Positions 26,572 to 64,000 of a stretch of 64,000 bases of DNA are shown in pieces. Position 1 is the first letter of the stretch. Every line of letters starts with the position of its first letter. The translations under genes and the position numbers were made by a program. Origin of the DNA: Costus lasius (lineage: Eukaryota; Streptophyta; Magnoliopsida; Zingiberales; Costaceae); the NCBI GenBank assembly GCA_027563935.2, contig CM050446.2, positions 29,949,501-30,013,500 on the forward strand. The letters run 5' to 3'. The notes beneath the pieces were generated by a model. That model saw only the letters and a program-made list of their open reading frames with translations, searched no databases and was not told where the DNA came from.

Positions 26572-26582
26572 AAGTGGGAGAT
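26572..26582 (+). promoter_or_regulatory. Copia polypurine tract
   Basis: AAGTGGGAGAT lies directly before the 3' LTR start TGTTGGGG. It is the standard copia plus-strand primer. Confidence 0.9.
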
Positions 26583-28301: not shown

Positions 28302-28306
28302 AGGAC

Positions 28307-29535
28307 GCCCGACTGAGGAACCACCACTCGAAGTCGCACGCGCGTACGTGTCGACAACGGACAGACGGATTGTCCGAGCACGCCTCTCATGCATTCGCCG
28401 ACTGGCCAAAGGGCCGGCCGACCATCTCCCTCTCTTGGAAAACTCAGGGAAAAGGGGACCGCATGTCGGCGGCAGGAAGGAGGTTGTACAACACTCATGA
28501 GGGCGAGCACGGGGAGGCAAGAGTGGCGGACGGACTGTAGCAGGGGCGTCGCGCACAACCTCTTCTGTTCGCGCACGCGAGGAAGGAACTGCCGGTGGAG
28601 GCCGCACGAAGGCGATGCAAGCGGATGGAGGAGGAGCTGGCAACGACCATCGCACACATGCAGCCTCCCTCAGACGGACGGCGTCACACGCAGGCGACGG
28701 CAGAAAACAGAGGAAGCTCGCTTGCAAGCGAGCGGGGAAGAGAGAGAAGACGGCTCCATACGCAGGTAGAGAAGGGCTCATCCGGCGAGCACGACACGTA
28801 GCTGCACGCAGGTAGGTCCGAGATGGTATTTCACGCACATAGGCGGCCGGCGTCAGACGGGGGAGAGAACGGAGACGAGGAGCGAGAATCGCCGGGAACC
28901 GCGTAGGTTCAACCAGGGAAGGGACGACCACCAGGCAGATCGGAGAAATGCCAAAAAATGAAAGGAGAAAACAAAGGGGGATACCTCGGCGATCACTCAG
29001 GCCGCCGGCTCCTTCAAGTCGACGATGTGGTTGCAGATGTGCCCTCCGAGGCGGTCTGGAGGCGTCATCGGCGTCAAAGGCGACAATCGTGGTGGTGACG
29101 AACACGAGAGCGAGGGAGGAAAGGGGACAGAGCTAGCTGCGGCATTCCACCACCCACCCACACCACCAGAACACCAGGGAATCTCCGCCAAAGAGGTCCA
29201 ACGAGAAGAAAGTGATCAGAGAGGAAAGGCGAGAGCGCTCGTCAGCTTTGTTTTCGAAAACTTCCCACTTGACGAGGGCGACATCTCGTCCTCATTCCTT
29301 TTCGTTGCCCCCGCCCACGCAGCATGAATCAACGCGGCGCCCGAGGCATCAGCCGCCCATGGGACGTCCACGTCAGCTCCCCTTTGCATGCAACCTCACG
29401 TGTGATTCGCCTGTTGGGCGTAAGTTCTGGATCCAAATTCGGTTGGTGCCTAATTCGATACGCCAGGTGAGCATAAGCAGTGCTGGGCTGGGATTTTGTT
29501 TGGGCCGCGCTCAAAATCAACCCGCAGGCCTAACA
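28307..29535 (-). repeat. Chromovirus 3' LTR, inner part
   Basis: This is the continuation of the LTR after the copia insert. It is GC-rich, with several overlapping but non-conserved open frames on both strands. It ends ...GGCCTAACA at 29535, beside the polypurine tract. Together with 18687-19196 it gives about 1739 bp. Confidence 0.9.
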
Positions 29536-29549
29536 TTCTCCCCCTCCAG
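29536..29549 (-). promoter_or_regulatory. Chromovirus polypurine tract
   Basis: The minus strand reads CTGGAGGGGGAGAA followed directly by the LTR start TGTTAGG. This is the expected plus-strand primer for reverse transcription. Confidence 0.85.
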
Positions 29550-35302: not shown

Positions 35303-35318
35303 GCTCTGATACTAAGCT
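35303..35318 (-). promoter_or_regulatory. Chromovirus primer-binding site
   Basis: Right after the antisense 5' LTR end (...GTCACA), the minus strand reads GCTTAGTATCAGAGCC. This differs from the tRNA-iMet complement TGGTATCAGAGC at one or two bases. Confidence 0.8.
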
Positions 35319-37046
35319 GTGACGTCCTTGTTTACAGTAATATTCTTTTATGGTTTTTACCCATGAGTCAACACTTGACTCGAGTCCGAATACACCCACG
35401 CAGGGGTCGCAACGGTCGAAACCGCTGGATTGGGCATGACTGGTGGAGTCAATTCCTCGAACCGACCCCTAGTCTGACTATGGACTCTGCGGAAGATCGC
35501 TGCTGTTCCAACACGACTAGATCAACGCTCGCGATTTACTGAGAATAGATATCGCTGAGTCAAATCGGGTTCACCCGAACCCAAACAGGACTCACCCGTA
35601 GCTGACTGCGCCAAACGGGGTCCTCAATAGTTTTTGAGCACACACCCGTGCCGGATAGAGAGCAGAGGGGAATAGCCAGGCGTCCAACGTCAGGCAGCCA
35701 GACCCACCCTCACGTCCACAGATCAAGCCAGCGCCCGGCGATCACAGATGGTCATCCATGCAGCATCGCATGCCGGTGACGAGGAAGATCTGGTCAGTAC
35801 CTCGCTCACATGCTGCCGAGGAAGGACGCCCGATCGAGGAACCATCACTCAGGGTCACACGCGCGTATGCATCGACAACGGACGGACGGATTGTCCTAGC
35901 ATGCCTCACATGCGTCCGCTGGCTGGCCAAAGGGTGGGCCATCCATCTCCCTCGCTTGGAAAACTCAGGAAAAAGGGGACCACACGTCGATGGCAGGAAG
36001 GAGGTTGTACAACACTCAGCAGGGCGAGCATGGGGAGGAGGCAAGAGTGGCGGACGGACTGCAGCAGGGGAGTCACACGCAACCGCGTCTATCCGTGCAT
36101 GCGAGGAAGGAACTGCTGGTTGGAGGCCGCACGAAGTCGACGCTGGCAGATGGAGGAGCTGGCGACCACCATCGCACGCAGGCAGCCACCCTCAGACGGA
36201 CGGCGTCGCACGCAGGCGATGGTAGAAAACAGAGGAAGCTCGCGCGCAGGCGAGCGGGGAAGAGAGAGAGGACGACTCCGCGCGCGGGTGGAGAAGGGCT
36301 CGTCCAACGAGAACGACACGCAGCCGCACGCAGGCGGGTCCGAGCCGGTATTTCACGCACGCAAGCGGCCGGTGTCGGACGGGGGAGAGAACAGAGATGA
36401 TCAGCGGGAACCACGTAGGTTCAACCGGGGAAGGGACGACCACCATGCAGATTGGAGAAACACCGGAAAACAAAAGGAGAAAACAAAGGGGGATACCTCA
36501 GCGATCACTCAGGCCACCGGCTTCTTCAAGTCGACGATGTGGTTGCAAATGTGCCTTCCGAGGCGGTCTGGAGGCGTCGCCGGCGTCAGAGGTGACGATC
36601 GTGGCAACGACGAACACGAGAGCAATGGAGGAATGGGGACAGCGCTGGCCGCGGCGTTCCACCACCCACCCACACCACTGAAACACCAGGGACTCTCTAC
36701 CAAAGAGGTTCAACAAGAAGAAAGTGATCGGAGAGGAAAGGAGAGAGCGCCGGTGAGCTTCGTTTTCGAAAACTCGCTGCTCAACGAGGACGACGTCTCA
36801 TCCTCATTCCTTTTCGTTGCCCCGCCCACACCGCACGAGTCAACACGGCGCCCGAGGCATCAGCTGCCCATGAGACGTCCGTGTCAGCTCCCCTTTGCAC
36901 GCAACCTCATCTGCGATTCGCCTATTGGGCGTAAGTTCCGGATCCGAATTTGGGCAGCGCCTAATTCGATCCGCCAGGTGAGCATAAGTAGGGTTGGGCT
37001 GGGCTTTTGTTTGGGCCGCGCCCAAAATCAGCCCACAGGCCTAACA
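35319..37046 (-). repeat. Chromovirus 5' LTR (1728 bp)
   Basis: On + it runs TGTGACGTCCTTG ... GGCCTAACA, and TCATG follows. It is GC-rich and CpG-rich in 35800-36900. A 436-codon open frame on + (35748-37058) spans most of it. The same region of the sister LTR is split into short frames, so I do not call it a gene. Confidence 0.92.
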
Positions 37047-37058
37047 TCATGGACATAG

Positions 37059-45450: not shown

Positions 45451-45589
45451 TTTACTCTTTAAAATGATTAGAATAATAAAGGTTTCTGTAAGAAGTGGAA
45501 CCTGGGTTACGGGTTAACAAGGGTATTAAATAAGGGTATCACTGTGAGAAATGGTTATGCAAAGAAATACACCATGCTTTCCTTTCACA

Positions 45590-46341: not shown

Positions 46342-47028
46342 ATGGATTCTCAACTTGCTAGTCTCGAAGTTAAATTTACTGTTAATCTTAGCACTACTAT
46401 GGAGTTGGATGGCACAAATTATTTGCTATGGGCTAGGGCTAGGGCTATGCTATTTTTTCTTGGGTCTCACGGCAAGAGATATCATGTCGAAAATATCCCA
46501 CCAACGACATCTGACCCTCATGGAGCATGGCTGATATGGCTGTAGTTAATTCTCTACTTCACAGTATGGAACTATCCATTGTATCTACTGTTAAGTTTCA
46601 TATTCTCTACTTCACATGAACCATCCATTATATCTACTATTATGTTTCATAACACCACGAAGGAAGTATGGGATTCCCTTGCTAGCACGTATGCTCCTCA
46701 ACACAATATCAGTCGTATTTATCAACTGTATGAGGAGATCCTTCTTATGCGACAAGATAGTCGGCCCTTACAGGAGTATTATACTCAATTAAAGGCAAAG
46801 TGTGATGAATTGCATCAGTATCACCCTCCAGTTGTTGATATATCTGTTATCCTTCAGCAACAAGAAGATTTTATTGATCTCAAGTTTTTTCGGGCCAGGA
46901 TGACAATCTCTCAGCACGCAACTAGCTCCTTGTGGAACCTACAGTTCTTACATTTCAGCATGTCTTTTATAGGCTTCTTCGGGTTCCATCTACATCTACT
47001 GCCTTTGAACCTCAAGAGTGCTCTTTAG
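46342..47028 (+). pseudogene. Copia gag fragment
   Basis: It starts ATG GAT TCT CAA (MDSQL) and reads TMELDGTNYLLWARA, then stops at 46543-46545. It resumes in another frame as EPSIISTIMFHNTTKEVWDSL, YQLYEEILLMRQDSRPLQEYY and LKAKCDELHQY, and ends at 47026-47028. This is the UBN2-type gag of copia elements (LDGTNY..W, then a K-x-V-W-D-S-L core). The zinc knuckle and all of pol are absent. The retained part would have been capsid. Whether the viral integration or a separate deletion removed the rest is not visible. Confidence 0.85.
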
Positions 47029-47130
47029 TGCCTCACTCATGTGGTTCCAGCAAATATAGATGCTAATAATAATGACATCTTGGAAGATATGCAAGATGAT
47101 GATTAAGTCACATCAAGAATGGAAGATACA

Positions 47131-47435
47131 CCAGCATCTCAACTATTGAAAAATAGTGGCCTATTATGTGGAAGGTCCACCTGCATCTCCACTATTGAAA
47201 AATAGTGGCCTATTACTTTACTTTATTAAAGGTTCACGTGTTGAAAGAAACGCGATGTCGGCCCACTGTGCAGGGCGATTTCTACAGGCGAATCTTTCAA
47301 TTATTAAAGTTTGTATGCTGGCATCAATTATCATAGATGCCTTACTTTAAAGTTTGTGTGCTGGCATCAATTATCATAGATGCCTTACTTCTTGTGCAAG
47401 CAAGCTCTCAACGTTGTCTATATAAGAGAGCCTCT
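47131..47435 (+). promoter_or_regulatory. Pararetroviral promoter with tandem repeats and TATA box
   Basis: TATATAAG at 47419-47426 is a strong TATA box, as in pararetroviral full-length-RNA promoters. Upstream are two tandem repeats: a 49-bp-period unit (47131-47166 and 47180-47215), whose second unit contains the perfect hairpin CCACTATT-GAAA-AATAGTGG, and a 43-bp-period unit (47306-47348 and 47349-47391) with TGGCATCAATTATCATAGATG. Such duplications often act as enhancers. Transcription would start near 47450 by distance from TATA. Confidence 0.75.
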
Positions 47436-47574
47436 AGACATGTAAGAAGGTATTCTACCTTCAGCTAGAAGTGGTGTGCTAGTACGCTTGTTTAGACATA
47501 AGCTTGTAAGTCTTCTGATGTTCTGCTTTTAATATCTCTCTCTCTTTTAAGTATTTTTGTTTGCAAAATACCCC
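47436..47574 (+). repeat. 139-bp inverted repeat, leader arm
   Basis: The segment from AGACATGTAAG to CAAAATACCCC is the reverse complement of 55640-55778 (ORF6 3' end of copy 1), with about six differences. It is also a direct copy of 56002-56140. In the RNA it lies near the 5' end, before the primer site. Confidence 0.93.
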
Positions 47575-47586
47575 CTCCTATCTTTT

Positions 47587-47604
47587 TGGTATCAGAGCTT
47601 TGTT
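47587..47604 (+). promoter_or_regulatory. Viral tRNA-Met primer-binding site
   Basis: TGGTATCAGAGCTTTGTT matches the minus-strand priming site used throughout Caulimoviridae (complement of the tRNA-iMet 3' end). By convention this is genome position 1. Copy 2's site would lie just beyond the right edge of the window. Confidence 0.92.
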
Positions 47605-48153
47605 ACGGTTCCATTTGATCGAACGGGAACACGTATAAGTATGGCATAAAAACATGTTAGTGTAAGGAAGATCCCTAAGCAGATGTATTATACTTGTTAA
47701 TTCAGATGGGATCTATTATGCTGTGTTTTTTACAAAAATCTGGAGATACCGGGGCTGCCTAAGTCACCATGTTTTGAATAAAGAAAATAACTAGAGGGCC
47801 AATGGCTTGGCAAGTAAAAGTCCAAAAGACGAGGAGAGTCGCCAGGGACGAGAGGCTTGCTAACGTCCATACAGCATGATGTTATTTTGATTATTCAAAA
47901 CCATATGGTAAAGCGGTTGATACCAGAGGAAAACATAGGCATAATAATATCTAGGAATCTATAGTTAACAAGTATTCTACTCCTTAGTATATCTTCTTTA
48001 CACAAAAACAGCATGTTGTCATACAGTGATTATACGTTAGTACCTAGTAGATCTCAAATATCTAATAATATTTATCTTTGATTGTGTTTAACCTAAAGAT
48101 GCAGATGATTCGTAAGAATCTAACAACTAGTAAGAGTTTAACACATAGGTAAT
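47605..48153 (+). other. Viral leader, copy 1
   Basis: There is no long ORF. It aligns with the copy 2 leader (63618-64000) from about 47887 on, but lacks about 115 bp that copy 2 has at 63681-63795. The junction GTGTTT|AACC lies near 48090. Leaders of this family fold into a large hairpin bypassed by ribosome shunting; whether that applies here is inference. Confidence 0.7.
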
Positions 48154-48638
48154 ATGAATATTAATTATCTATATTTAACCTTATCACAAAAATACTGGGA
48201 AACACAAACTAATTCCCAAGCAACTAAGCATAAATGCTATTTTCCAAGAGAAAATGGTAGATATGCTCATCAATTTCATACTGAACATGCTCAGATGAAT
48301 ACAATAATTGATTTTCAAATCTCTCATGCCGAAAGCCTTAGAGAATTTAATCATCTTTGTACTAAACTTTGGAAAAAAAAGTTCATTCTGAAATGATTGC
48401 GAAAAATATGCTTTTACGCAATATTCATAATAATCACGAGTATATTAAGAACCAATATACATACCTGATTACTATGGTAAAAGAGATTGAAAAATCAATT
48501 ATTTTACAAAAACAACTTACTGTTGAATTAAAAGAGATATTAGATCGTCTACATAGACAATCTCAAATCTCATATCATCAGCATGCAAAAGTAGCAGATT
48601 TACTTGTGAAATTGCAGAGAAATTATGAAGAATGGTAG
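48154..48638 (+). pseudogene. Viral P1, copy 1 (frameshifted)
   Basis: The first viral ORF encodes a protein of about 157 residues by comparison with copy 2. The N-terminal part starts MNINYLYLTL at 48154. A frame change in the A-run near 48371-48379 moves the rest to another frame, which reads VHSEMIAKNMLLRN and a helical Gln/Glu/Lys-rich C terminus likely to be a coiled coil, ending YEEW at 48638. Its place as the first small ORF resembles badnavirus P1, a virion-associated protein of unclear role. Its stop overlaps the next ATG (ATGGTAG, 48632-48638). The assignment rests on position and size only. Confidence 0.7.
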
Positions 48639-49060
48639 ATCCATCTAAAGAATACCCAAGACAGATAGATTAAGATATTAACTATCAACAAGAACTAGTC
48701 GAATCTAGTAATTATTTAGATGGAGCACTTGACATAATCTCAGATGATCCCCAAAGTGCCTATGATAAAAGATTTGTTCGCCAGAACAATTTCATTATTG
48801 CATATCTTATGCAATTAAACAAAAAACTTGATAGTATGGTACTAAGAATAACTACTTCTTCTGAAACTATACTTAGACAACAAGAAGTAATCCAACGCTT
48901 GAATGATTTGTTGGTCTTACAAACACAACAATATCAGACCTCGGTTCAAGAATTGGCTAATCAGCTAAACCGAGTACTTCAAGCATCTACTGCTTCATCA
49001 TCTACGTCTACCTCAGGACGTAAAAGACAACCTAGAAGTACCCAGTTTGCTTGTAAATGA
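48632..49060 (+). pseudogene. Viral P2, copy 1 (one stop)
   Basis: The ORF has about 142 codons. It starts at the ATG overlapping the P1 stop, meets TAA after MVDPSKEYPRQID (near 48671), then stays open to TGA 49058-49060. It has a heptad-like segment (about 48830-48990: LNKKL, ILRQQEVIQRLNDLL) consistent with a coiled coil. The C terminus is Ser/Thr-rich and then basic (SGRKRQPRS). Badnavirus and tungrovirus P2 have the same size and a basic, nucleic-acid-binding tail. The stop overlaps the movement-protein ATG as ATGA. Confidence 0.7.
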
Positions 49061-50025
49061 CAACAAGACCATTTACAGGAACTTCTAATACACTTACTGG
49101 AACCACAACAGTAAGAGAAAATAATCATAATGAAAGGTTATCAATCAGTAATCCCATCCCTAACATCCTTAACAGGATATTTGAAGGTAATGGAATTCCA
49201 GCATAAGTGTTGGAAGAAGTTGTTGATATTGATCAACAATTTGAAGTCTATCAAAATAATAGGTTACAAATATTACGTCCCCAACTTCTGTATAGAACTG
49301 GACCATTAAACCTAAGGACCCAGCTCCTAAGAATTACTCATGAAGAACACCTTTCTGTCACAACAGAACCAAGAAATCTCAAGATTATTTCAAGAGATTC
49401 TTTAACAAAAATAAGACAATCAGGGAAGACTTTAACCCATAGTGGGATGATAGTTATCTCTATAAAAGGTCTAGCCCGGAAGAAACTAGGTATAAAGGTC
49501 TTAATTTCTGTTCTTGACAAAAGATGAAAGTCTGACACAAGGAAAGCAATGATTGCCTGTATGGAAGTCGATATGACTGAAAATAAAGGCATATTTTACT
49601 GTGCTCCTGATTTTTTAATAAGTACTAGGGATCTTGGAGAACTAGAAATTAGTATCCAAGCAAGAAGATATGAAGATTTTTCTGGAGATTCTAATCTATT
49701 AATCGGATTAGGATTCTTAGGAAAATTAACAAACAATTCTAATACTGGATATAAGCTTTATATCTCTTCTGTGATTGATGCTTTAGCCAGTAAAGGAATT
49801 AAGATGATAAAACCCATGGCTATATCACCAGATGATCTTGGAGGATTATATTGGAATATCTCCAAAAATCTAGATTGCGGACAAATGCTTGTCCCGGAAG
49901 AAAGCATTATGTTTAAAAATCCTGATGATACCTATAATTTGAGATTTTCAAATTATAAAAAGAAACAACCTCTTAATGATAACGAGGCTTCAACATCAGG
50001 AAATGAAAAATTTTTAGAATCATAA
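49057..50025 (+). pseudogene. Viral movement protein, copy 1 (two stops)
   Basis: It has 323 codons in one frame from ATG 49057 to TAA 50023-50025. In-frame TAA lies at 49204-49206 and TGA at 49525-49527 (Trp in copy 2). It belongs to the 30K movement superfamily: a beta-rich core with GMIVISIKGLARKK, VLDKR, MEVDMTEN and SNLLIGLGFLGKL, the pattern seen in badnavirus movement domains. Such proteins form tubules through plasmodesmata for cell-to-cell spread. It is a separate ORF, not fused to coat protein. Copy 2 has an unbroken version. Confidence 0.85.
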
Positions 50026-51838
50026 TGGTATTAGCAGATAATACTCTTTTAATACCTAAAGAATTAGGTTTTACATTTAAAGAAATGCTAAGCCTAGAAA
50101 TTGAGGTTATTGAAACTGGTCAAATCTTTGGTTCTCATAAACCCATAGTAGATTCAGAAGGAAACATACGAGTTCAGCATGAATTTACAGAACAAATATT
50201 CCAGCGTCTCCTAGTTGAGGCAAAAAATGATAATAAGATAAACTTAAAAGCACTTCAAACATTGTATAAGTTCCACAATGATCTTGAAGCAACTCAGCAT
50301 ACAAATTTAGAAAATTTCAATGACGAAAGATATGCTACACAAAGCATAACTTCTGATGAATTAGATCGATTTGAACGATCTTGATAATCTAAATATAGAT
50401 TTAGATGTCCTCGATAATCTAAATCTTAATGATCTCTTTGAGGATGATAATTAGAGTATCCAAAGTATTCAAAAAGATTTAATGAATACAGAAATGAGTG
50501 ATGTACCACAAGGAAGTGCCGCAGCACAAATGAGTACTACAGCAACACATGCCAGTACATCAAGATCAATAACCTATCCTATAGGTCAACCACCTCGAGA
50601 ACCTTATATACAATATGAGGGTGAACGAGGAGGAATACAAACTAAAGGTAAAAGATTACCTTTAGAAATTATAGATAAAAAAAAAACTACTAGATGATGG
50701 AAAGATCCTGAATCTAGCAGCTCACGATCCACAAACATGGAATACGGTTCTTGACCATTGGTCATCAAAAGTAGCCATGAAGGTCTCAGAATTAGATAGA
50801 ATATTTTCTGCAGAAGAAATGTATTCTTATCTATAAAATTTCCTCGGTGGAACTGCAAGAGCCATATGGGAATCATATAAATTGAATTTCCCAACAGAAT
50901 TTCAACAAGATGTTGCCCTAGGAGTAAATCCTAATAATTTTACTAATAGGATGCGACTAATGATTACGGGTGCAAACCCTAACATGGGATATAATGCCCT
51001 ACAAAAAGAAGCAATTAGAAAACTTGAAATACTACAGATAAAAAACTGGAAGTATATCAAGCCTTTTCTTCAAGACTTCCTGTATTATGCTTGTGATGCA
51101 GGAGGATATCATGACCAAGCTTTAGGAGAAAGGTTATTTTTAAAATTACCTGCTCCTATAGGCCATGAAATACATAAAGCCTGGGATGCTAGTCCACAAC
51201 AGCCTCCTGGCTTAAATAATATTACACTTAGAATACAATTTATCATAGATAAATTGGTAGAAAGGTGTACTCACCTTCGGGGAAATCACCAATTAAAAAG
51301 CAAATTTAGTTTTTGTAACCAACTATATACGCCACAAACATATGTCCAGGAGAAACCTGTTCATAAGAAAAAGCCTAAGAAAGGAAAATCTTCAAAGAAG
51401 TATTTTCACCGAAAATCTTCTGCTAAAAAATCTTATTTTGCAAAGGATAAGCATGTCAGAAAATATAATCCGAAAAAGGATTATAAAAATAAGCTTTCTT
51501 GCTTTACATGTGGAAGTCAAAACCATTTAGCACGAGATTGTACCAAAAGGCAAAATCTCTATAACAAACAATCTATTCTTATTGATTGTGTGCAAGAAGA
51601 TCTACTTAATGTAGATGAATATCTATCTGATACTGAGTCAATTTACAGTATTGTCTCAATACCAGATCCAACATACCAATCTGGCTCAGACAATGAATTA
51701 GATGAATTTTCCTCTAACTTATTGTCTAAAGTAGATAGGTTACAATCACCCTTTGGAACAGAAAATCTAGTTCCTTCTATAGATATTCCTTCTATGGATA
51801 AACTAGATATTTTAATGCCCTTCTTAGAGCAATTATAA
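50025..51838 (+). pseudogene. Viral coat protein, copy 1 (frameshifts, stops)
   Basis: It starts at ATG 50025, sharing a base with the movement-protein stop (TAATG). The N-terminal frame runs to 50384. An acidic Asp/Asn/Leu-rich stretch, typical of caulimovirid coat proteins, follows in another frame (about 50385-50480). The core resumes at about 50780 with a stop near 50836, and is open to 51838. It has KLEILQIKNWKYIKPFLQDF and a Lys-rich run, then a zinc knuckle CFTCGSQNHLARDC (CX2CX4HX4C) at about 51508-51549, used for RNA packaging. An acidic Ser-rich tail ends EQL. Family coat proteins of 45-60 kDa are in line with about 604 residues. Confidence 0.85.
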
Positions 51839-51845
51839 AGTAAGA

Positions 51846-54338
51846 ATGCATGTACCTTCTTCATATCAAATTATGGCTCCTGTCTTACCACCAGTACATG
51901 AACATCAGTGGAGTCCACGAAGAGGTAGTCAAAGACCATGCTTGTATATTTTATTCAAAATATCCAAGTATGAATCTTCGCTATCTGTGTATGATTTGTT
52001 CTCTCGAAGCTTGCAAATATTGCCTAGAGAAACAAAATGTATCCCTTCCAAGCTCTTCTACTCCTGTGCCACGAAAAAACTGAAATTGTAGAATTGCATA
52101 TTTTACAATTAGAAAATAAACTTTATAAACTATCACAGCGAGTGGATGAGTTAGAAAGAGGAAGATTACCTAATAAAGGTAACCTGCCTGAAAATCTCAT
52201 GTTTTAAGAGAATACAGATTATAATGAATTCTCTTATGAAGAAATTCATCATATTGATTTCATACATAAACCACTATAACCACCCTAGTTATATTCTATT
52301 AAGATTAACAGTATTATCCAAATTTCTGATTGAAAATTAGAAATACCGGCTTTAATTGACACAGGTTGTAGTAATACAATTTTAGATATGAATCTTGTTC
52401 CGCAAAAATATCACATGAAACTTGATCCTCAAGATCGGTTTTATGCAGAACAAATGGATGGGAAATTATTCTTATATGAATATATTCTTTCTAAACATAA
52501 GCTTTCTTTTTCTTTAGGAAATGCTCATTATACACCACCGACTTTTATCGGTCGTATATGCTTAAGACCTATGAATTTAGTTAAAACTAAATTTATCATC
52601 GGCCTTAACATCCTTATTAATTCCTATAAAGGAGTCACCTTAACAACTGATGGGCTTTTCTTTTTGCCCCATACCCTTATCCCATACACTTCTTCCTCGC
52701 CTGCGAAGCGTGGTGGGTGTCCCTGCGATATTCCAAATTCTTACAAACTACCTTTACCTGTGCAAGAAGATATTCCTCCACCTTCTACCGAAGGGGATGA
52801 ATCAGAAGAAATTTTATGGATTCTTCGTCATCCTGTGAATAAGTTCCATAAAGAATATGAGAAAGATGATATTCTTGACCAAGTTTTATTTAACAAAATT
52901 TAGTCAGGAAATGATAGACAATCTAATTAGATTGTTAGAAAAGGATCAAATTTTTGGTTCCAATCCCCAAGCCCATTGGGATAAAAATAAACTTGTTTGT
53001 AAATTGAAAATCAAAGATCCTGGTTTTCGAATTACAAATAAAAAGATCACAGCAACAAACGACAATATTGCTGAATTTAAAATGCACATTGATGACTTAT
53101 TCAAACTCAATGTGATCAGAAGGAGTACATCTCCACATAGATCGCCTGCTTTTATTGTAAACAAACACAGTGAACAGGTTAGAGGCAAAACACGAATGGT
53201 TATTGACTATCGTCAATTAAATGACAATTTAAAAGATGATGGTTATGACATTCCAGATAAAACTGAGTTAATAAACTCTATACAAGGAAGTCATATCTAC
53301 TCAAAATTCGACTGTAAATCTGGTTTCTGGCAAATCAGAATGGCAGAAGAATCAATACCATAGACAACTTTTACTTGTCCATTAGAAAGCTTTGAGTGGC
53401 TAGTAATGCCATTTGGGCTCAAAACTACTCCTGCAGTATTCCAAAGATTCCAAAGAAAAATGGATGAAGTTTTTAAATCTTATCAAAACTTTGTTTGTGT
53501 GTATATAGATAACATTCTTGTACACAGTAAAATAGAGAAAGAACATACAAGTCATCTCAAACTTGTATTACAAAAATTTTATACAAACGGAATTATTGTC
53601 TCTGGACAAAGATCTCAGTTTTATAAAAAATCTATTGAATATTTAGATGTTGAAATTGGTAATGGAGAAATTAAACTCCAACCACATATCGCATCTAAAA
53701 TAAAAACCCTTGAGGTTACAGATACTAAGAGTTTACAATAATTCTTAGGACTAATAAATTATGCTAGACCTTTTTTAAAAGATCTACATAAATTGAGTAG
53801 ACCCCTCTACTCAAAGTTATCACTTACAGGTGTAAAAGAATTTAACACCGAAGACTATAAACAAATTGATAAAATCAGACAATTGGTAGATACACTACCT
53901 TTGCTCAAATTACCTTTGCATACTGATTATCTCATTGTTCAAATAGATAGTTGTGAACAAGGATGGGGTGTCATCTTACTTTGCAAGCCACATAAATACG
54001 CTTATGATCCTAAAACCATATGTAGATATGCTTCTGACAAATTTCGTGAGAAAAATGTCACTAGCAGTATTGATCAAGAGCTCTTGGCTGTATGTTACGA
54101 TCTTGATGCTTTCAGATTATTCCTTTTAAATAAAAATGACATACTTATAAGAACTGACTGTGAGGCCATAGTTAAGTTCTTCAGAACAAAAAATGAGAAA
54201 CGTATCTCCCAAAAGAGATGGTTATGATTTATTGATTATTGCATTAATAATGCATACAAAATCACCTTTGAACATATCAAAGGCAAAGAAAATGTTATTT
54301 CTAACATTTTATCACGTCTTTTATTAAGACCAGAATGA
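51846..54338 (+). pseudogene. Viral Pol (Cys-rich domain, protease, RT, RNase H), copy 1
   Basis: It starts at ATG 51846, eight bases after the coat stop. A Cys-rich domain (shifted frame, about 51935-52050) has one Cys changed to Tyr (CIFY). A coiled coil follows (QLENKLYKLSQRVDELE). The protease has PALIDTGCSN (about 52353). RT has FDCKSGFWQIRM, a TAG at 53361-53363 where copy 2 has Trp, MPFGLKT with a small RFQ duplication, and YIDN at about 53504 instead of YIDD. TAA at 53739-53741 precedes RNase H (IVQIDSCEQGWG, SIDQELLAV, RTDCEA). Other stops include 52277, 52286 and 52336. The ORF end TGA overlaps the ORF6 ATG (ATGA). The polymerase is inactive. Confidence 0.88.
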
Positions 54339-55726
54339 CAACTAACAAAGTTGTGCAGGAAATGGCAGCTCAAGGTCCATCCTCTACTAATGATAAAAAG
54401 AATTTGGAAAAAGTTTCTAAAGGAAAACAACCTCTAGTAATAAATCCCATGGATACAGACGGAGCTACTTATGCTCAGACAGTTAAGGAAGCTCCACCAA
54501 AAGAACAAATATATTTGTTTCGGACTCCGAAACACTATACGTCTTTAACAAACCAAGATCATATGCTTTTGGATTTGTTATGGAAAGACCATCATGGGGC
54601 GGGTTTTCTCACTACAATGAATAGTCTTGCGGCTCATTTACAAGCTATTCGCTATATGAAGACCTTACTAGTACTATTACCACAGGTGCAAAGATTAGAG
54701 CCACAAACATTAGAAGCTTATGTGGCAAAAGAATTCAAAATCTCAAAATTAGAAGCCGAAGCTTTCGGCTTCAAAGCCAGGATTGAAGAATTACAAACCC
54801 AAAAGGCTAGCCTTGAGGAAAATATCAAGCTTTTATCTACAGCTTGGGATCAAGAACTGAACATGCAATGGAATCAGTCTAAAGCTAAAATACCTTCAGT
54901 TTTACACCCTGTAAAATAACAGGTATATGAGTTCATCAAGAAATCACAACAGCAAAAGTTTTTGCGAATTATCCAATGCTTTCGGCTTATGGCATTAAAT
55001 CAAGTCACAAAGCCTACTGGCTTTCATCTGACTATGATTACTCTAAAGACAGAAGAAGCTCACCCAAATGAGCCTCATTGTCACTGTCACCAAGGGTTCA
55101 CAATTATCAAAGCTTCTGTTAATCTTACCTAATGGAAGGACTGTAAAATTATGGGTACAGAGGTATCACTTCTCGACCTTTATAATTATGGACTGCTAGA
55201 TCGATTGGTTGTCCATCATATGCATTTATGGAAGTTTTCTGCTTTCCCATGGAAATTACGATTTTGCTTAGACAAAATGTACAAGACTTATGAATTTTCA
55301 GGTTATCTTGACTTGAACATAAATTCATGTCCACCTTGGTATATTGGCTATCCTAGTGATGCTAAGCACCAGATATTGATCAAGATCTAGCAAGACTTTT
55401 TACCGGATTTTTGGGATGTGTCTTTTGAAGATGAAATAAGAAAGACAGAACAAGTTCCTCTTGAGCTCCAAGTACGACTATAGAGACATTATTGTATGAC
55501 TGAAGAGTATGTGGCTTTTTCACTGTCATATTTACTTACAGAAGATAAAACTCTGAAAATATATGTGGAAGATGAAAAAGATATCTTTTTTGTCCCTTTC
55601 CACTCACATTTTTGCACTACCCCTGGGCAATATGAACACGGGGTATTTTGCAAACGAAAATACTTAAAAGAGAGAGATATATTAAAAGCAGAACATCAGA
55701 AGACTTACAAGCTTATGTTTAAATAA
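54335..55726 (+). pseudogene. Viral P6-like ORF, copy 1 (stops only)
   Basis: It has 464 codons in a single frame from ATG 54335 to TAA 55724-55726. It is interrupted by TAA at 54917, a stop near 55129, TAG at 55388-55390 and TAG near 55481. The N terminus is Lys/Ser-rich. The middle has a predicted coiled coil (FKISKLEAEAFGFKARIEEL). The C-terminal half is Tyr/Trp/Cys-containing and likely folded (CPPWYIGYPSDAKH). A last ORF after RNase H occurs in tungrovirus (P46) and in caulimoviruses (transactivator); homology to either is not shown. Its 3' 87 bases lie in the 139-bp inverted repeat. Confidence 0.65.
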
Positions 55727-55778
55727 GCGTACTAGCACACCACTTCTAGTTGAAGGCAGAATACCTTCTTACATGTCT
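55640..55778 (+). repeat. 139-bp inverted repeat, ORF6 arm (copy 1)
   Basis: GGGGTATTTTGC ... ACATGTCT is the complement of the leader arm 47436-47574 and of 56002-56140. It includes the end and stop of ORF6. It bounds the central promoter segment on the left. Confidence 0.93.
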
Positions 55779-56001
55779 AGTGGTCTATTATGTGGAAGGT
55801 CCACCAGCATCTCCACTATTGAAAAATAGTGACCTATTACTTTACTTTATTAAAGGTTCAAGTGTTGAAAGGAACGCAATGCCGGCCCACTGTGCAAGGC
55901 GGTTTCTACAGGCGAATCTTTCAATTATTAAAGTTTGTATGCTGGCACCAATTATCATAGATGCCTTACTTTAAAGTTTGTGTGCTGGCATCAATTATCA
56001 T
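55779..56001 (+). promoter_or_regulatory. Central promoter fragment lacking its TATA box
   Basis: It matches 47156-47380, including the CCACTATT-GAAA-AATAGTG hairpin and the 43-bp repeats. It then jumps at TAGA from CATAGATGCC to TCTAGACATG, deleting about 58 bp that contain the TATA box. It is flanked by the two arms of the 139-bp repeat and forms the centre of the viral palindrome. Confidence 0.85.
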
Positions 56002-56140
56002 AGACATGTAAAAAGGTATTCTGCCTTTAGCTAGAAGTGGTGTGCTAGTACGCTTGTTTAGACATAAGCTTGTAAGTCTTCTGATGTTCTACTTTTAATA
56101 TATCTCTCTCTTTTAAGTATTTTCGTTTGCAAAATACCCC
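56002..56140 (-). repeat. 139-bp inverted repeat arm shared with copy 2
   Basis: On + this equals the leader arm of copy 1. On - it is the 3' end of copy 2's ORF6. After ...AAAATACCCC the + strand continues as antisense ORF6 (GTGTTCATATTGCC), where copy 1's leader continues to the primer site. It marks the point where the two copies were joined. Confidence 0.92.
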
Positions 56141-57447
56141 GTGTTCATATTGCCTAGGGGTAATGCAAAAATGTGAGTGGAAAGGGACAAAAAAGATATC
56201 TTTTTCATCTTCCACATATATTTTCAGAGTTTTATCTTCTATAAGTAAATATGTCCGTGAAAAAGCCACATACTCTTCAGATATACAATAATGTCTCCAT
56301 AGTCATACTTGGAGCTCAAGAGGAACTTGTTATGTCTTTCTTATTTCATCTTCAAAAGACACATCCCAAAAATCTGGTAAAAAGTCTTGCTAGATCTTGA
56401 TCAATATCTAGTGCTTAGCATCACTAGGATAGCCAATATACCAAGGTGGACATGAATTTATGTTCAGGTCAAGATAACCTGAAAATTCATAAGTCTTGTA
56501 CATTTTCTCTAAGCAAAATCGTAATTTCCATGGGAAAGCAGAAAGCTTCCATAAATGCATATGATGGACAACCAATCGATCTAGCAGTCCATAATTATAA
56601 AGGTCGAGAAGTGATACCTCTGTACCCATAATTTTACAGTCCTTCCATTGGGTAAGATTAACAGAAGCTTTGATAATTGTGAACCCTTGGTGACAGTGAC
56701 AATGAGGCTCATTTGGGTGAGCTTCTTCTATCTTTAGAGTAATCATAGTCAGATGAAGGTCAGTAGGCTTTGTGACTTGATTTAATGCCATAAGCCGAAA
56801 GCATTGGATAATTTGCAAAAAAACTTTTGCTGTTGTGATTTCTTGATGAACTCATATACCTGTTGTTTTACAGGATGTAAAACTGGAGGTATTTTAGCTT
56901 TAGACTGATTCCATTGCATGTTCAGTTCTTGATCCCAAGCTGTAGATAAAAGTTTTATATTTTCCTCAAGGCTAGTCTTTTGGGTTTGTAATTCTTCAAT
57001 CCTGGCTTTGAAGCCTAAAGCCTCGGCTTCTAATTTTGAGATTTTGAATTCTTTTGCCACATAAGCTTCTAATGTTTGTAGTTCTAATCTTTGGACCTGT
57101 GGTACTGGTACTGGTAAGGACTTCATATAGCGAATAGCTTGTAAATGAGCCGCAAGACTATTCATTGCAGTGAGAAAACCCGCCCCATGATGGTCTTTTC
57201 ATAACAAATCCAAAAGCATATGATCTTGGTTTGTTAAAGACGTATAGTGTTTCGGAGTCCGAAACAAATATATTTGTTCTTTTGGTGGAGCTTCCTTAAC
57301 TGTCTGAGCATAAGTAGCTCCGTCTGTATCCATGGGATTTATTACTAGAGGTTGTTTTCCTTTAGAAACTTTTCCCAAATTCTTTTTATCATTAGTAGAG
57401 GATGAACCTTGAGCTGTCATTTCCTGCACAACTTTGTTAGTTGTCAT
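56045..57447 (-). pseudogene. Viral P6-like ORF, copy 2
   Basis: ATG at 57447 overlaps the Pol stop (ATGA). A stop lies near 57196. The coiled-coil part (FKISKLEAEALGFKARIEEL) is present, and the reading frame is lost at a T-run near 56820, where copy 2 has extra bases. The C-terminal half continues in another frame, with TAG at 56390-56392 (also in copy 1). The last segment ends at TAG 56045-56047, later than in copy 1, inside the inverted repeat. It has the same unknown role as its twin. Confidence 0.65.
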
Positions 57448-59937
57448 TCTGGTCTTAATAAAAGACGTGATAAAATGTCAGAAATGATATTTTCTTTGTC
57501 TTTGATATGTTCAAAGGTGATTTTGTATGCATTATTAATGCAATGATCAATAAATGATAACCATCTCTTTTGGGAGACATGTTTCTCATTTTTTGTTCTA
57601 AGAACTTAACTATGGCCTCACAGTCAGTTCTTATAAGTATGTCCTTTTTATTTAAAAGGAATAATCTGAAAGCATCAAGACCGTAACATACAGCCAAGAG
57701 CTCTTGATCAATACTGCTAGTGACATTTTTCTCACAAAATTTGCCAGAAGCATATCTACAGATGGCTTCAGGATCAGAAGCGTATTTATGTGGCTTGCAA
57801 AGTAAGATGGCACCCTATCCTTGTTCACAACCATCTGTTTGAACAATGAGATAATCATTATCCAAAGGTAATTTGAGCAAAGGTAGTGTATCTACCAATT
57901 GTCTGATTTTATCAATTTGTTTATAGTCTTCAGTGTTAAATTTCTTTACATCGGTAAGTGATAACTTTGAATAGAGGGGTCCACTCAATTTATGTAGATC
58001 TTTTAAAAAAGGTGTAGCATAATTTATTAGTCCTAAGAATTATTGTAAACTCTTAGTATCTGTAACCTTAAGGGTTTTTATTTTAGATGCGACATGTGGT
58101 TGGAGTTTAATTTCTCCATTACCAATTTCAACACCTAAATATTCAATAGATTTTTTGTAAAACTGAGATTTTTGTCTAGAGACAATAATCCCGTCTGTAT
58201 AAAATTTTTGTAATACAAGTTTGAGATGACTTGTATGTTCTTTCTCTGTTTTACTGTGTACAAAAATGTCATCTATATACACACAAACAAAGTTTTGATA
58301 AGGTTTAAAAATTTCATCCATTTTTCTTTGGAATACTGCAAGAGCGGTTTTGAGCCCAAATGGCATTACTAGCCACTCAAAGCTTCCTAATGGACAAGTA
58401 AAAGTTGTCCATGGTATTGATTCTTCTGCCATTCTGATTTGCCAGAAACCAGATTTACAGTCGAATTTTGAGAAGATATGACTTCCTTGTATAGAGTTTA
58501 TTAACTTAGTTTTATCTGGAATATCATAACCATCATCTTCTAAATTGTCATTTAATCGACGATAGTCAATAACCATTCGTGTTTTGCCTCTAACCTGTTC
58601 ACTGTGTTTGTTTACAATGAAGGCAGGCGATCTATGAGGAGATGTACTCGTTCTGATCACATTGAGTTTGAATAAGTCATCAATATGCATTTTAAATTCA
58701 GCAATATTGTCGTTTGTTGCTGTGATCTTTTTATTTGTAATTCGAAAACCAGGATATTTGATTTTCAATTTACAAACAAGTTTATTTTTATCCCAATGGG
58801 CTTAGGGATTGGAACCAAAAATTTGATCATTTTCTAACAATCTAATTAGATTGTCTATCTCAGCATTTCCTGACTCAATTTTGTTAAATAAAACTTGGTC
58901 AAGAATATCATCTTTCTCATGTTCTTTATGGAACTTATTCACAGGATGACGAAGTATCCATAAAATTTCTTCTGATTCATCCCCTTCGGTAGAAGGTGGA
59001 GGAATATCTTCTTGCATAGGTAAAGGTAGTTTGCAAGAATTTGGAATATCGCAGGGACACCCACCACGCTTTGCAAGCGAGGAAGTGTATGGGATAAGGG
59101 TATGGGCCAAAAAGAAAAGCCCATCAGTTGTTAAGGTGACTTCTTTATAGGAATTAATAAGGATGTTAAGGCCGATGATAAATTTAGTTTTAACTAAATT
59201 CATAGGTCTTAAGCATATACGACCGATATAAGTCGGTGGTGTATAATGAGCATTTCCTAAAGAAAAAAAAAGCTTATGTTTAGAGAGAATATATTCATAT
59301 AAGAATAATTTCTTATCCATTTGTTCTGCATAAAACCGATCTTGAGGATCAAGTTTCATGTGATATTTTTGCGGAACAAGATTCATATCTAAAATTGTAT
59401 TACTACAACCTGTGTCAATTAAAGCCGGTATTTCCAATTTCCAATCAGAAATTTGGATAATACTGTTAATCTTAATAGAATATAACTAGGGTGGTTGTAG
59501 TGGTTTATGTATGAAATCAATATGATGAATTTCTTCGTAAGAGAATTCATTATAATCTGCATTCTCATAAAACATGAGATTTTCAGGCAGTTTACCTTTA
59601 TTAGGTAATCTTCCTTTTTCTAACTCATCCACTCGCTGTGAGAGTTTATAAAGTTCATTTTCTAATTGTAAAATATGCAATTCTACAATTTCAGTTTTTC
59701 CCTTCTATGGTGGCACACAGGAGTAAAAGAGCTTGGAAGGGATACATTTTGTTTCTCTAGGCAATATTTGCAAGCTTCGAGAGAACAAATGATACACAGA
59801 TAGCGAAGATTCATACTTGAATATTTTGAACAAAATATACAAGCATAGTCTTGACTACCTCTTCGTGGACTCCACTGATGTTCATGTACTGGTGGTAAGA
59901 TAGGAGCCATAATTTGATATGAAGAAGGTACATGCAT
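57444..59937 (-). pseudogene. Viral Pol, copy 2 (catalytic motifs present, frame broken)
   Basis: It starts at ATG 59937. The N-terminal Cys-rich domain is complete: Cys 33, 36, 48, 51, 56 and 59, spacing CX2CX11CX2CX4CX2C, which is the second zinc-finger-like motif described for badnaviruses. A frame change near 59700 is followed by a coiled coil, then TAG 59486-59488. The protease has PALIDTGCSN (Asp near 59420). RT after TAA 58802-58804 has FDCKSGFWQIRM, MPFGLKT and YIDDIFVHS (near 58275), all intact. TAA at 58040-58042 separates RNase H, which is further broken near 57860. The protein would copy viral RNA to DNA in the virion or cytoplasm. The breaks prevent a full-length product. Confidence 0.88.
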
Positions 59938-59944
59938 TCTTACT

Positions 59945-61759
59945 TTATAATTGCTCTAAGAAGGGCATTAAAATATCTAGTTTATCCATAGAAGGAATAT
60001 CTATAGAAGGAACTAGATTTTCTGTTCCAAAGGGTGATTGTAACCTATCTGTTTTAGACAATAAGTCAGAGGCAAATTCATCTAATTCATTGTCTGAGCC
60101 AGATTGGTATGTTGGATCTGGTATTGAGACAATACTGTAAATTGACTCAGTATCAGATAGATATTCATCTACATTAAGTAGATCATCTTGCACACAATAA
60201 AAAAGAATAGATTGTTTGTTATAGAGATTTTGCCTTTTGGTACAATCTCGTGCTAAATGGTTTTGACTTCCACATGTAAAGCAAGAAAGCTTATTTTTAT
60301 AATCCATTTTCGGATTATATTTTCTGACATGCTTATCCTTTGCAAGATAAGGTTTTTTAGCAGAAGATTTTCGAAGAAAATACTTCTTTGAAGATTTTCC
60401 TTTCTTAGGCTTTTTCTTATGAATAGGTTTCTCCTGGACATATGTTTGTGGCGTATATAGTTGGTTACAAAAACTAAATTTGCTTTTTAATTGGTGATTT
60501 CCCCGAAGGTGAGTACACCTTTCTACCAATTTATCTATGATAAATTGTATTCTAAGTGTAATATTATTTAAGCCAGGAGGCTGTTGTGGACTAGCATCCC
60601 AGGCTTTATGTATTTCATGGCCTATAGGAGCAGGTAATTTTAAAAATAACCTTTCTCCTAAAGCTTGGTCATGATATCCTCCTGCATCACAAGCATAATA
60701 CAGGAAGTCTTGAAGAAAAGGCTTGATATACTTCCAGTTTTTTATCTGTAGTATTTCAAGTTTTCTAATTGCTTCTTTTTGTAGGGCATTATATCTCATG
60801 TTAGGGTTTGCACCCGTAATCATTAGTCGCATCCTATTAGTAAAATTATAAGGATTTACTCCTAGGGCAACATCTTGCTGAAATTCTGTTGGGAAATTCA
60901 ACTTATATGATTCCCACATGGCTCTTGCAGTTCCACCGAGGAAATTTTCTAGATAAGAATACATTTCTTCTGCAGAAAATATTCCATCTAATTCTGAGAC
61001 CTTCATGGCTACTTTTGATGACCAATGGTGAAGAACCGTATTCCATGTTAGTGGATCGTGAGCTGCTAGATTCAGGATCCTTCCATCATCTAGTAGTTTT
61101 TTCTTATCTATAATTTCTAAAGTTAATCTTTTACCTTTAGTTTGTATTCCTTCTCGTTCACCCTCATATTGTGTATAAGGTTCTCAAGGTGGTTGACCTA
61201 TAGGATAGGTTATTGATCTTGATGTACTGGCATGTGTTGCTGCAGTACTCATTTGTGCTGCGGCACTTGCTTGTGGTACATCACTCATTTCTGTATTCAT
61301 TAAATCTTTTTGAATACTTTGGATACTCTGATTATCATCCTCAGAGAGATCATTAAGATTTAGATTATCGAGGACATCTAAATCTATATTTAGATTATCA
61401 AGATCATTCAAATCTTGATCTAATTCATCAGAAGTTATGCTTTGTGTAGCATATCTTTCGTCATTGAAATTTTCTAAATTTGTATGCTGAGTTGCTTCAA
61501 GATCATTGTGTAACTTATACAATGTTTGAAGTGCTTTTAAGTTTATCTTATTATCATTTTTTGCCTCAACTAGGAGACGCTGGAATATTTTTTCTATAGA
61601 TTCATGCTGAACTCGTATGTTTCCTTCTGAATCTACTGTGAGTTTATGAGAACCAAGGATTTGACCAGTTTCAATCAGCTCAATTTCTAGGCTTAGCATT
61701 TCTTCAAATGTAAAACTTAATTCTTTAGGTATTAAAAGAGTATTATCTGCTAATACTAT
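59945..61759 (-). pseudogene. Viral coat protein, copy 2 (start lost, one stop)
   Basis: The whole 605-codon stretch is in one frame down to the stop at 59945-59947. The start codon has become ATA (TAATAG in place of TAATG at about 61757-61761). One TGA lies at 61184-61186, where Arg is expected. An acidic stretch (about 61410-61320) precedes the capsid core (LNFPTEFQQDVALGVN). A zinc knuckle CFTCGSQNHLARDC lies near 60280-60240. It would form the bacilliform or icosahedral shell and bind RNA through the knuckle. Only two point changes separate this copy from an open ORF. Confidence 0.88.
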
Positions 61760-62727
61760 TATGATTCTAAAAATTTTTCGATTCCAGATGTTGAAGCCTC
61801 GTTATCATTAAGAGGTTGTTTCTTTTTATAATTTGAAAATCTCAAATTATAGGTATCATCAGGATTTTTAAACATATTGCTTTCTTCCGGGACAAGCATT
61901 TGTTCGCAATCTAGATTTTTGGAGATATTCCAATCTAATCCTCCAAGATCATCTGGTGATATAGTCATGGGTTTTATCATCTTAATTCCTTTACTGGCTA
62001 ATGCATCAATCACAGAAGAGATATAAAGCTTATATCCAGTATTAGAATTATTTGTTAATTTTCCTAAGAATCCTAATCCGATTAATAGATTAGAATCTCC
62101 AGAAAAATCTTCATATCCTCTTGCTTGGATACCAATTTCTAGTTCTCCAAGATCCCTAGTACTTACTAAGAAATCAGGAGCACAGTAAAATATATCTTTA
62201 TTTTCAGTCATATCGACTTCCATATAGGCAATCATTGCTTTCCTTGTGTCAGACTTCCATCTTTTGTCAAGAACAGCAATTAAGACCTTTATCCCTAGTT
62301 TCTTCCGGGCTAGGCCTTTTATAGAGATAACTATCATCCCAATATGGGTTAAAGTCTTCCCTGATTGTCTTATTTTTGTTAAAGAATCTCTTGAAATAAT
62401 CTTGAGATTTCTTGGTTCTGTTGTGACAGAAAAGTGTTCTTCACGGGTAATTCTTAGGAGCTGGGTCCTTAGGTTTAATGGTCCAGTTCTATACAGAAGT
62501 TGGGGACGTAATATTTGTAACCTATTATTTTGATAGGCTTCAAATTGTTGATCAATATCAACAACTTCTTCCAACACTTGTGCTGGAATTCCATTACCAT
62601 CAAATATCCTATTAAGGATGTTAGGGATAGGATTACTGATTAATAACATTTCATTATGGTTATTTTCTCTTACTGTTGTGGTTCCAGTAAGTGTATTAGA
62701 AGTTCCTGTAAATGGTCTTGTTGTCAT
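61759..62727 (-). CDS. Viral movement protein, copy 2, unbroken (322 aa)
   Basis: It is an uninterrupted ORF from ATG 62727 to TAA 61759-61761. The ATG overlaps the P2 stop (ATGA). It has a 30K-superfamily core with IGMIVISIKGLARKK, VLDKRW, MEVDMTEN, IQARGYEDFSGDSNLLIG and NNSNTGYKLYISSV. The same order of motifs is known for the movement domain of badnavirus polyproteins, but here the protein ends before the coat domain. It would act at plasmodesmata. It is the only unbroken viral ORF in the window. No promoter for it is visible apart from the viral full-length one, which lies outside. Expression is therefore doubtful. Confidence 0.9.
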   Translation of the reverse strand: MTTRPFTGTSNTLTGTTTVRENNHNEMLLISNPIPNILNRIFDGNGIPAQVLEEVVDIDQQFEAYQNNRLQILRPQLLYRTGPLNLRTQLLRITREEHFSVTTEPRNLKIISRDSLTKIRQSGKTLTHIGMIVISIKGLARKKLGIKVLIAVLDKRWKSDTRKAMIAYMEVDMTENKDIFYCAPDFLVSTRDLGELEIGIQARGYEDFSGDSNLLIGLGFLGKLTNNSNTGYKLYISSVIDALASKGIKMIKPMTISPDDLGGLDWNISKNLDCEQMLVPEESNMFKNPDDTYNLRFSNYKKKQPLNDNEASTSGIEKFLES

Positions 62728-63150
62728 TTACAAGCAAACTGGGTACTTCTAGGTTGTCTTTTACGTCCTGAGGTAGACGTAGATGATGAAGCAGATGCTT
62801 GAAGTACTCGGTTTAGCTGATTAGCCAATTCTTGAACCGAGGTCTGGTATTGTTGGGTTTGTAAGACCAACAAATCATTCTAAGCGTTGGATTACTTCTT
62901 GTTGTCTAAGTATAGTTTCAGAAGAAGTAGTTATTCTTAATACCATACTATCAAGTTTTTTGTTTAATTGCATAAGATATGCAATAATGAAATTGTTCTG
63001 GTGAACAAATCTTTTATCAGAGGCACTTTGGGGATCATCTGAGATCATGCCAAGTGCTCCATCTAAATAATTACTAGACTCGACTAGTGCTTGTTAATAG
63101 TCAATATCTTGATCTATCTGTCTTGGGTATTTTTTAGATGGATCTACCAT
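62724..63150 (-). pseudogene. Viral P2, copy 2
   Basis: ATG at 63150 overlaps the P1 stop (ATGGTAG). TAA lies near 63096, at a different site from the copy 1 stop. A frame change near 62880 (AATCATTCTAAGCG) follows the conserved SSETILRQQEVIQR segment. The basic Ser-rich C terminus is still legible in another frame. Confidence 0.7.
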
Positions 63151-63617
63151 TCTTCAGAATTTCTTTGCAATAAATATGCTATTTTTGCATGTTGATGATA
63201 TGAGATTTGAGATTGTCTATGTAGACGATCTAATATCTCTTTTAATTCAACAGTAAGTTGTTTTTGTAAAATAATTGATTTTTCAATCTCTTTTACCATA
63301 GTAATCAGGTGTGTATATTGGTTCTTAATATACTCCTGATTATTATGAATATTGCGTAAAAGCATATTTTTCGCAATCATTTCAGAATGAACTTTTTTCT
63401 AAAGTGCAGTACAAAGATGATTAAATTCTCTAAGGCTTTCGGCCTGAGAGATTTGAAAATCAATTATTGTATTCATCTGAGCATGTTCAGTATGAAATTG
63501 ATGAGCATATCTACCATTTTCTCTTGGAAAATAGCATTTATGCTTAGTTGCTTGGGAATTAGTTTGTGTTTCCCAGTATTTTTGTGATAAGGTTAAATAT
63601 AGATAATTAATATCCAT
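63144..63617 (-). pseudogene. Viral P1, copy 2 (single stop)
   Basis: It runs from ATG 63617 to TAG 63144-63146 in one frame of 158 codons, with one internal TAG at 63399-63401. The N terminus reads MDINYLYLTLSQKYWE. The C-terminal half (KEIEKSIILQKQLTVELKEI) is helical and probably a coiled coil. It is the cleanest guide to P1 length. Its function is unknown; by position it corresponds to badnavirus P1. Confidence 0.72.
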
Positions 63618-64000
63618 ATTACCTATGTGTTAAACTCTTACTAGTTGTTAGATTCTTACGAATCATCTGCATCTTTAGGTTAAAAACCATAAGATGTTTT
63701 GAAACCCTAAAGGTTTGTTTATGCCCAGAGGCATGATTATGTGTAAAGCCTTTCGGCTTTTGTGGATAAACTCGTTTCATCTAAACTATGTGTATAAACA
63801 CAATCAAAGATAAATATTATCAGATATTTGAGATCTACTAGGTACTAGCGTATAATCACTATATGACAACATGCTGTTTTTGTGTAAAGAAGATATACTA
63901 AGGAGTAAGAATACTTGTTAACTATAGATTCCTAGATATTATTATGCCTATGTTTTCCTCTGGTATCAACCGCTTTATCATATGGTTTTGAATAATCAAA
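63618..64000 (-). other. Viral leader, copy 2 (partial)
   Basis: It aligns with 47887-48153 of copy 1 but has about 115 extra bp (63681-63795). That segment holds three short perfect-stem hairpins: AAACC/GGTTT (63703-63717), ATGCC/GGCAT (63721-63734) and AAAGCC/GGCTTT (63745-63760). The primer site would be about 300 bp beyond the edge. Confidence 0.8.

Follow-up and report, generated by a model that had tools for sequence, protein, structure and literature searches.

A tail-to-tail palindrome of endogenous caulimovirid copies in Costus lasius, probably captured as an inverted dimer

In tomato, inverted-repeat endogenous caulimovirid (ECV) loci known as TSAs are reported to yield 22-nt small interfering RNAs (siRNAs) by which matching transcripts are degraded (Valli, Gonzalo-Magro and Sanchez, 2023; PMC10377300; PMC12904150), and in soybean long inverted repeats derived from caulimovirids and transposable elements are reported to feed the 22-nt siRNAs of DCL2 (Jia et al., 2020; PMC10377300). 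Here we describe a locus of this kind in the plant Costus lasius, within a stretch of 64,000 nucleotides (the window; GenBank assembly GCA_027563935.2, contig CM050446.2; G000:C1:29949501-30013500) of a 1.28-Gb genome. Two ECV copies, copy 1 on the + strand and copy 2 on the - strand, are paired there tail to tail as an inverted repeat, and the locus thus has the long ECV inverted repeat that is one of the features of a TSA-like locus. The best explanation overall, to which we assign a probability of roughly 0.7, is an old germline insertion of caulimovirid DNA that was captured as an inverted dimer.

The locus offers a near full-length case in which the age of a palindrome can be set against the age of its integration. 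An inversion about as old as the insertion, as argued below, bears on whether hairpin-forming viral fossils arise by integration itself or by later rearrangement. A partial literature search found no report of a full-length tail-to-tail caulimovirid palindrome, and we do not claim that none is in print.

Architecture of the palindrome

A blastn self-comparison of the window aligned 48074-55779 with 63695-56001 at 96.2% identity over 7,726 columns, and the bit score of this match, 12,591, rules out a chance repeat. A second match paired 47886-48090 with 64000-63795. Pairwise alignment of the two arms covered 7,865 aligned bases, with 247 substitutions (3.14%; 180 transitions and 67 transversions; Kimura two-parameter distance 0.032) and 15 indels, bearing out the initial annotation, made from the letters of the sequence, which had read the copies as mirror images of about 8 kb each. 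The extent given there, 47131..64000, has to be amended: viral sequence starts at about 47120-47131 and ends 313 bases past 64000, for a viral insert of ~17.2 kb in total. There is no N in the window or in the 7-kb sequence that extends it to the right (L009). The parts of the palindrome are as follows.

47120..47434, +: promoter region of copy 1, with two 49-nt tandem units at 47120-47215 and a TATA-like box, TATATAAG, at 47419-47426
47435..47574, +: R-like segment of 140 nt, which begins slightly upstream of the likely start of transcription and stops just short of the primer site; its true ends are inferred
47575..55639, +: body of copy 1 (arm 1), with its tail cut at 55639
47587..47598, +: 12-mer resembling a primer-binding site, by sequence match
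55640..55779, -: inverted R that ends copy 1 (tail/inverted-R joint), by sequence comparison
55778..56004, +: promoter fragment of the loop, 217/227 identical to 47154-47380, with joints at TAG and TAGA
56001..56140, +: R (an inverted R on copy 2's own strand), which meets the tail by the same joint as in copy 1
56141..64000, -: body of copy 2 (arm 2), which extends 313 bases beyond the window to the primer site

The 12-mer at 47587 is presumably the binding site of an initiator tRNA-Met primer. The promoter with a TATA box that had been annotated for copy 1 was confirmed on this left side, and its order of promoter, R and primer site is also found in other copies.

Across the centre, the tail of copy 1 runs to 55639 and is followed by the inverted R, the promoter fragment, R and the inverted tail of copy 2. 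The two tails break off at one and the same base, where each meets the same end of an inverted R, and the joints of the loop carry TAG and TAGA microhomology. The loop promoter fragment is without the 58 nt before R, the segment that holds the TATA-like box. The 223-bp promoter fragment and the 139-bp repeat on each side of it that were first annotated between the copies are both present, but the repeats (140 nt) are inverted to each other and form part of the arms, so that the loop measures 221 nt. A segment of 114 bases is present in arm 2 and missing in arm 1; it was most likely lost from arm 1, because 7 of 20 tail pieces from other copies in the genome match it (one over 19 bases only). 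Copy 2 continues outwards through the primer site, whose 12-mer lies in L009, to a position equivalent to 47573. This falls in the same run of C in which the inverted R terminates (47574); R and promoter are absent at this outer end.

The Pfam domains of the insert come in the order MP (movement protein), Caulimovir_coat_dom with zf-CCHC, Peptidase_A3B, RVT_1 and RT_RNaseH, and no integrase domain was found in the 29 viral pieces scanned, some of which overlap and which do not include every short open stretch. Because the movement protein, coat, protease, reverse transcriptase (RT) and RNase H are found and integrase is not, the insert is, judged by its domains, an endogenous member of the Caulimoviridae, and the pararetroviral identity proposed in the initial annotation is upheld. 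The genes and open reading frames (ORFs) are as follows.

49057..50024, +: movement protein gene of copy 1, with two private stops; the Pfam MP match sits on its copy 2 counterpart, 61759-62727
50025..51838, +: coat protein ORF of copy 1, broken, with Caulimovir_coat_dom and a zinc knuckle
52070..54227, +: protease, RT and RNase H part of copy 1, broken, by Pfam; the ORF starts somewhere in 51828-52070
54305..55390, +: tail ORF of copy 1, broken, with no Pfam domain above cut-off
58040..59485, -: protease and RT pieces of copy 2, broken, by Pfam
59945..61006, -: part of the coat protein ORF of copy 2, an open stretch of 353 aa, by Pfam
61759..62727, -: movement protein ORF of copy 2, open (322 aa), by Pfam MP

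Protein searches gave 14 matches to the coat protein, 40-59% identical in the aligned parts, one of them named (plant genome, Dioscorea alata), and three to the movement protein, 48-56% identical in the aligned parts, again with one named (plant genome, Platanthera zijinensis). A scan of IMG/VR with the coat protein found no relative. Within the genome the family is of high copy number: a single RT piece led to the best 40 scored matches of 696 candidates, and other copies are up to 94-95% alike in RT. The tail of the locus (54900-55639) is just 67-71% like other copies (L011-L029), and its promoter and R (47131-47574) are mostly 68-85% like the same copies, a pattern beside the high RT likeness that suggests recombinant virus lineages.

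Kinship, decay and age of the arms

The arms are nearest relatives in the RT tree, 4.0% apart compared with at least 5.5% to any other copy (support 94/87, 40 rows), and sisters in a tree of RT and RNase H (support 100/98, 8 rows). In the tail ORF they differ by 3.0%, as against 24.7-30.5% to the four copies with long alignments; two further copies match over 54 bases only, at 11.1%. By these measures the arms are sisters.

The joint between tail and inverted R points the same way. Its 23 bases, allowing up to 3 mismatches, were searched for in the window and 65 fetched loci (118,836 bases) and were found twice in the window and in none of the 65 loci, 12 of which contain another copy's tail. 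Among the 20 pieces compared, 12 hold the tail; 11 of these continue into a + promoter, one has no promoter match and none enters an inverted R, and tail/inverted-R was therefore rejected as a natural virus order. A high-copy family whose other members are 94-95% alike in RT could in principle supply two related viruses that inserted independently and came to lie tail to tail by chance, and RNase H taken alone places arm 2 slightly closer to another copy, L007 (4.6%), than to arm 1 (5.0%). We nevertheless regard two independent insertions as very improbable, given a joint that is identical in both arms and seen in 0/12 other tails, the proximity of the arms in RT and the much greater distance of the four other tails.

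Both arms are, on the sequence, dead as genes, because they carry many stops and frame-changing indels: 16 private in-frame stops lie in gene frames (12 in copy 1 and 4 in copy 2), and 7 of the indels between the arms shift the reading frame of a gene. The codon pattern between the arms is neutral, with 39/144 changes synonymous, 10 stop changes being set aside, against 29.4% expected (p=0.58; ratio of non-synonymous to synonymous rates, dN/dS, ~1.12), and the differences fall 59/47/48 by codon position. When changes were polarised with five other copies, using only sites where those five agree and dropping the rest, the stem leading to the arms carried 8 synonymous changes, 1 non-synonymous change and 1 stop, compared with 8, 30 and 2 private to the arms (Fisher p=0.0003 for the synonymous and non-synonymous counts). 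The changes up to the arm split thus look selected and those afterwards neutral. Selection before the split and none after it would mean that the pair formed at or soon after integration, and we consider it fairly well supported that the arm split, and hence the inversion, dates to that time, the inversion being of about the same age as the insertion. Plant substitution rates are 6.5e-9 to 1.3e-8 per site and year; at these rates the 3.2% divergence of the arms would correspond to roughly 1.2-2.5 million years, a figure to be taken as a guide only.

Several observations weigh against this account. The stem test draws on 10 changes, from 1.25 kb of sequence. Three stops are common to both arms (52286, 53739 and 55388), the last of which may be where the tail ORF ends naturally. 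Such stops imply a source of the two arms that was either defective beforehand or briefly a single copy in the genome; a short single-copy phase after integration may therefore have occurred. The stop at 53739 is a weak sign of common origin, because it recurs in two of the 34 other copies with letters there (among 40 copies the codon is a stop in 4, namely both arms and two non-sisters, sense in 32 and a gap in 4). A run of 371 identical bases in the coat gene (50988-51358 and its copy 2 counterpart) was reached in 30 of 20,000 permutations, and the spread of differences along the arms is uneven (p=0.18, 0.052 and 0.028 for 200-, 400- and 800-base bins). Both hint at some gene conversion, which would bias the age estimate.

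Integration and origin of the pair

The insert lies among copia-type sequences, and the two features that flank it are as follows.

46579..47028, +: left flank, copia-type gag, below Pfam cut-off
L009:338-661 and 1291-2693, +: right flank, gag_pre-integrase and RVT_2, one RVT_2 piece above and one below cut-off

As copia-type domains occur on both sides in the same orientation, the flanks are taken as one element, which the ~17.2-kb viral insert appears to interrupt. A 103-base flank repeat (45487-45589 and L009:3159-3258, 84%) might represent the long terminal repeats (LTRs) of that element, an uncertain assignment given that a second, weaker match between the flanks falls in a different order. 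Scans for Rfam families and tRNAs found nothing in the window. In a protein search with a copia protein, the matches listed (120 of 350) reached at most 65% identity at full coverage and came from various plants. Elsewhere in the window there is a young copia-type LTR retrotransposon, with repeats at 19194-20916 and 26580-28302 that are 99.6% identical and an intact polyprotein of 1,294 aa at 22678-26562; further repeats lie on either side of it (28301-29536 and 35822-37047, 85%; 18687-19196 and 35318-35827, 84%) in a manner that suggests nesting. To the right of the insert, ORFs with BED zinc finger and DUF659 domains (L009 4935-6287) are probably, we assume, the remnant of a hAT-type transposase.

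Caulimovirid minus strands start at the primer site, which leaves a discontinuity there. In the 10 of 20 pieces of other copies where R lies next to the primer site, four end at 47583, 47586, 47594 and 47598, while copy 2 ends at 47573 and the right arm of a second palindrome, described below, at 47571; all these positions are alignment ends, accurate to a few bases. The clustering of viral ends at the primer site suggests the joining of linear viral DNA in break repair. Break repair with viral filler DNA is one of two widely held hypotheses of integration (PMC10377300). Linear viral DNA opened at the primer-site discontinuity would have filled a break in the copia-type element, and end joining, a snap-back template switch over the TAG and TAGA microhomology that copied one arm, or both, would, in an order of steps that we infer, have produced the palindrome at or soon after integration. 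It counts against such a course that, of the 10 informative copies, one ends at 47630, outside the cluster, and five run through.

Sister arms with common in-frame stops, one of them on the stem, would also fit a single copy that integrated first and was later duplicated in inverted orientation within the chromosome. We think this unlikely, since the host flanks lie outside the palindrome and their copia-type domains all point the same way, the end of copy 2 falls in the cluster of viral ends at the primer site, and 8 of the 10 stem changes are synonymous. An origin of the pair as an inverted dimer at or soon after integration is, on the evidence of the joints, ends and stem, probable.

Inverted pairs in this genome are not unique to the window. 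A survey of the best 40 scored RT places of the 696 candidates found an inverted sister pair at C4:25.66 Mb, with arms of at least 1.77 kb at 97.1%, and another, head to head, at C1:139.5 Mb, where one piece matches over 2.84 kb at 99.3% and the next over 2.5 kb at 99.6%; a third copy, at another place on C1, is almost as close to this pair as its arms are to each other. In this head-to-head caulimovirid palindrome (L063, G000:C1:139506500-139513500) the start of the right arm lies close to the primer-binding site and approximately at the break point of the window. The genome also holds junctions of the order tail-promoter-R-primer site-body, as well as close pairs on the same strand. In two such pairs, at C8:19.7 Mb (L036/L037) and C1:51.8 Mb (L047/L061), the copies lie 7-9 kb apart and differ by 0.4% in RT, which points to recent insertions, tandem or concatemeric.

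Long palindromes are a known type of artefact in long-read data, and an assembly error or fold-back read was considered for this reason. It is extremely improbable here, because the arms differ by 247 substitutions, mostly transitions (180, with 67 transversions), compared with only 15 indels; the 16 private stops, neutral codon pattern, lack of N, microhomology at the joints and different arm divergence of the other inverted pairs also argue against it.

The break points of the window locus and of C1:139.5 Mb lie within about 3 bases of each other. It is conceivable, though we think it improbable, that capture as inverted dimers with ends near the primer-site discontinuity is a recurrent route in this genome, each event creating a germline hairpin locus at integration and not by later rearrangement. 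If so, integration would confer an instant heritable antiviral RNA memory.

Silencing potential and comparison with known systems

The initial annotation had suggested that a read-through transcript would fold into a long hairpin and that the locus might serve as an antiviral silencing cassette. The hairpin potential is real in so far as the arms are almost completely complementary. Perfect pairing between them extends over 3,817 of 7,844 22-nt windows, and RNA of the centre (55500-56280) folds at -520.9 kcal/mol, compared with -170.0 (sd 4.8) for 20 shuffles. A transcript started by the copy 1 promoter, or arriving from outside, would on crossing the 221-nt loop give an RNA hairpin of up to ~8 kb, which DCL2 and DCL4 (and DCL3) could dice into siRNAs, and these in turn could target, in trans, both related viruses and the sister copies of this genome. 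Such action could be wide, because each of the 38 other RT copies compared has one or more 22-mers of the RT piece in common with the arms. A silencing cassette is plausible, and the idea is not new, as there is published precedent in the inverted-repeat caulimovirid loci of tomato.

Production of siRNAs from the hairpin today is a tentative proposal, with somewhat less than an even chance of being right, and a benefit of the locus to the plant is less likely still. To read through ~8.2 kb, a transcript from 47450 would have to cross 11 AATAAA motifs, in AT-rich sequence, ahead of 55639. We lean slightly towards a locus that is transcriptionally silent, with only the 24-nt siRNAs of RNA-directed DNA methylation that any repeat would have and no hairpin role. 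The heavy decay and retrotransposon-rich surroundings tell against function in this way, and transition differences per site are 40/380 for CHG and 16/184 for CG, compared with 124/2,055 for CHH, the pattern expected of methylated DNA. On the other side, the left promoter elements are still readable, and inverted-repeat ECVs elsewhere are reported to be active (PMC10377300).

Among the systems described, endogenous banana streak viruses resemble the locus in holding inverted viral pieces at one place, with fragments duplicated in the same or opposite directions, but infectious release by recombination is proposed for them (PMC10377300), whereas the two copies in C. lasius are disrupted by many stops and frame changes. 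Head-to-tail tandems of the petunia vein clearing virus type are likewise multimeric insertions (PMC10377300) and differ in orientation from the tail-to-tail pair. The soybean inverted repeats are, as the locus might be, an inverted-repeat source of primary siRNAs; the RNA was shown in soybean, while the present locus is known from its sequence. The closest parallel is with the tomato TSAs, in which a caulimovirid insert was similarly rearranged to an inverted repeat with hairpin potential, and which have been proposed as a heritable RNA-based immunity; 22-nt siRNAs and target degradation are reported there, in contrast to a locus described here at the level of DNA. We suggest that the palindrome of C. 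lasius is a further example of the hairpin-forming ECV type already known from tomato and soybean, to which the present analysis adds a dating of the inversion.

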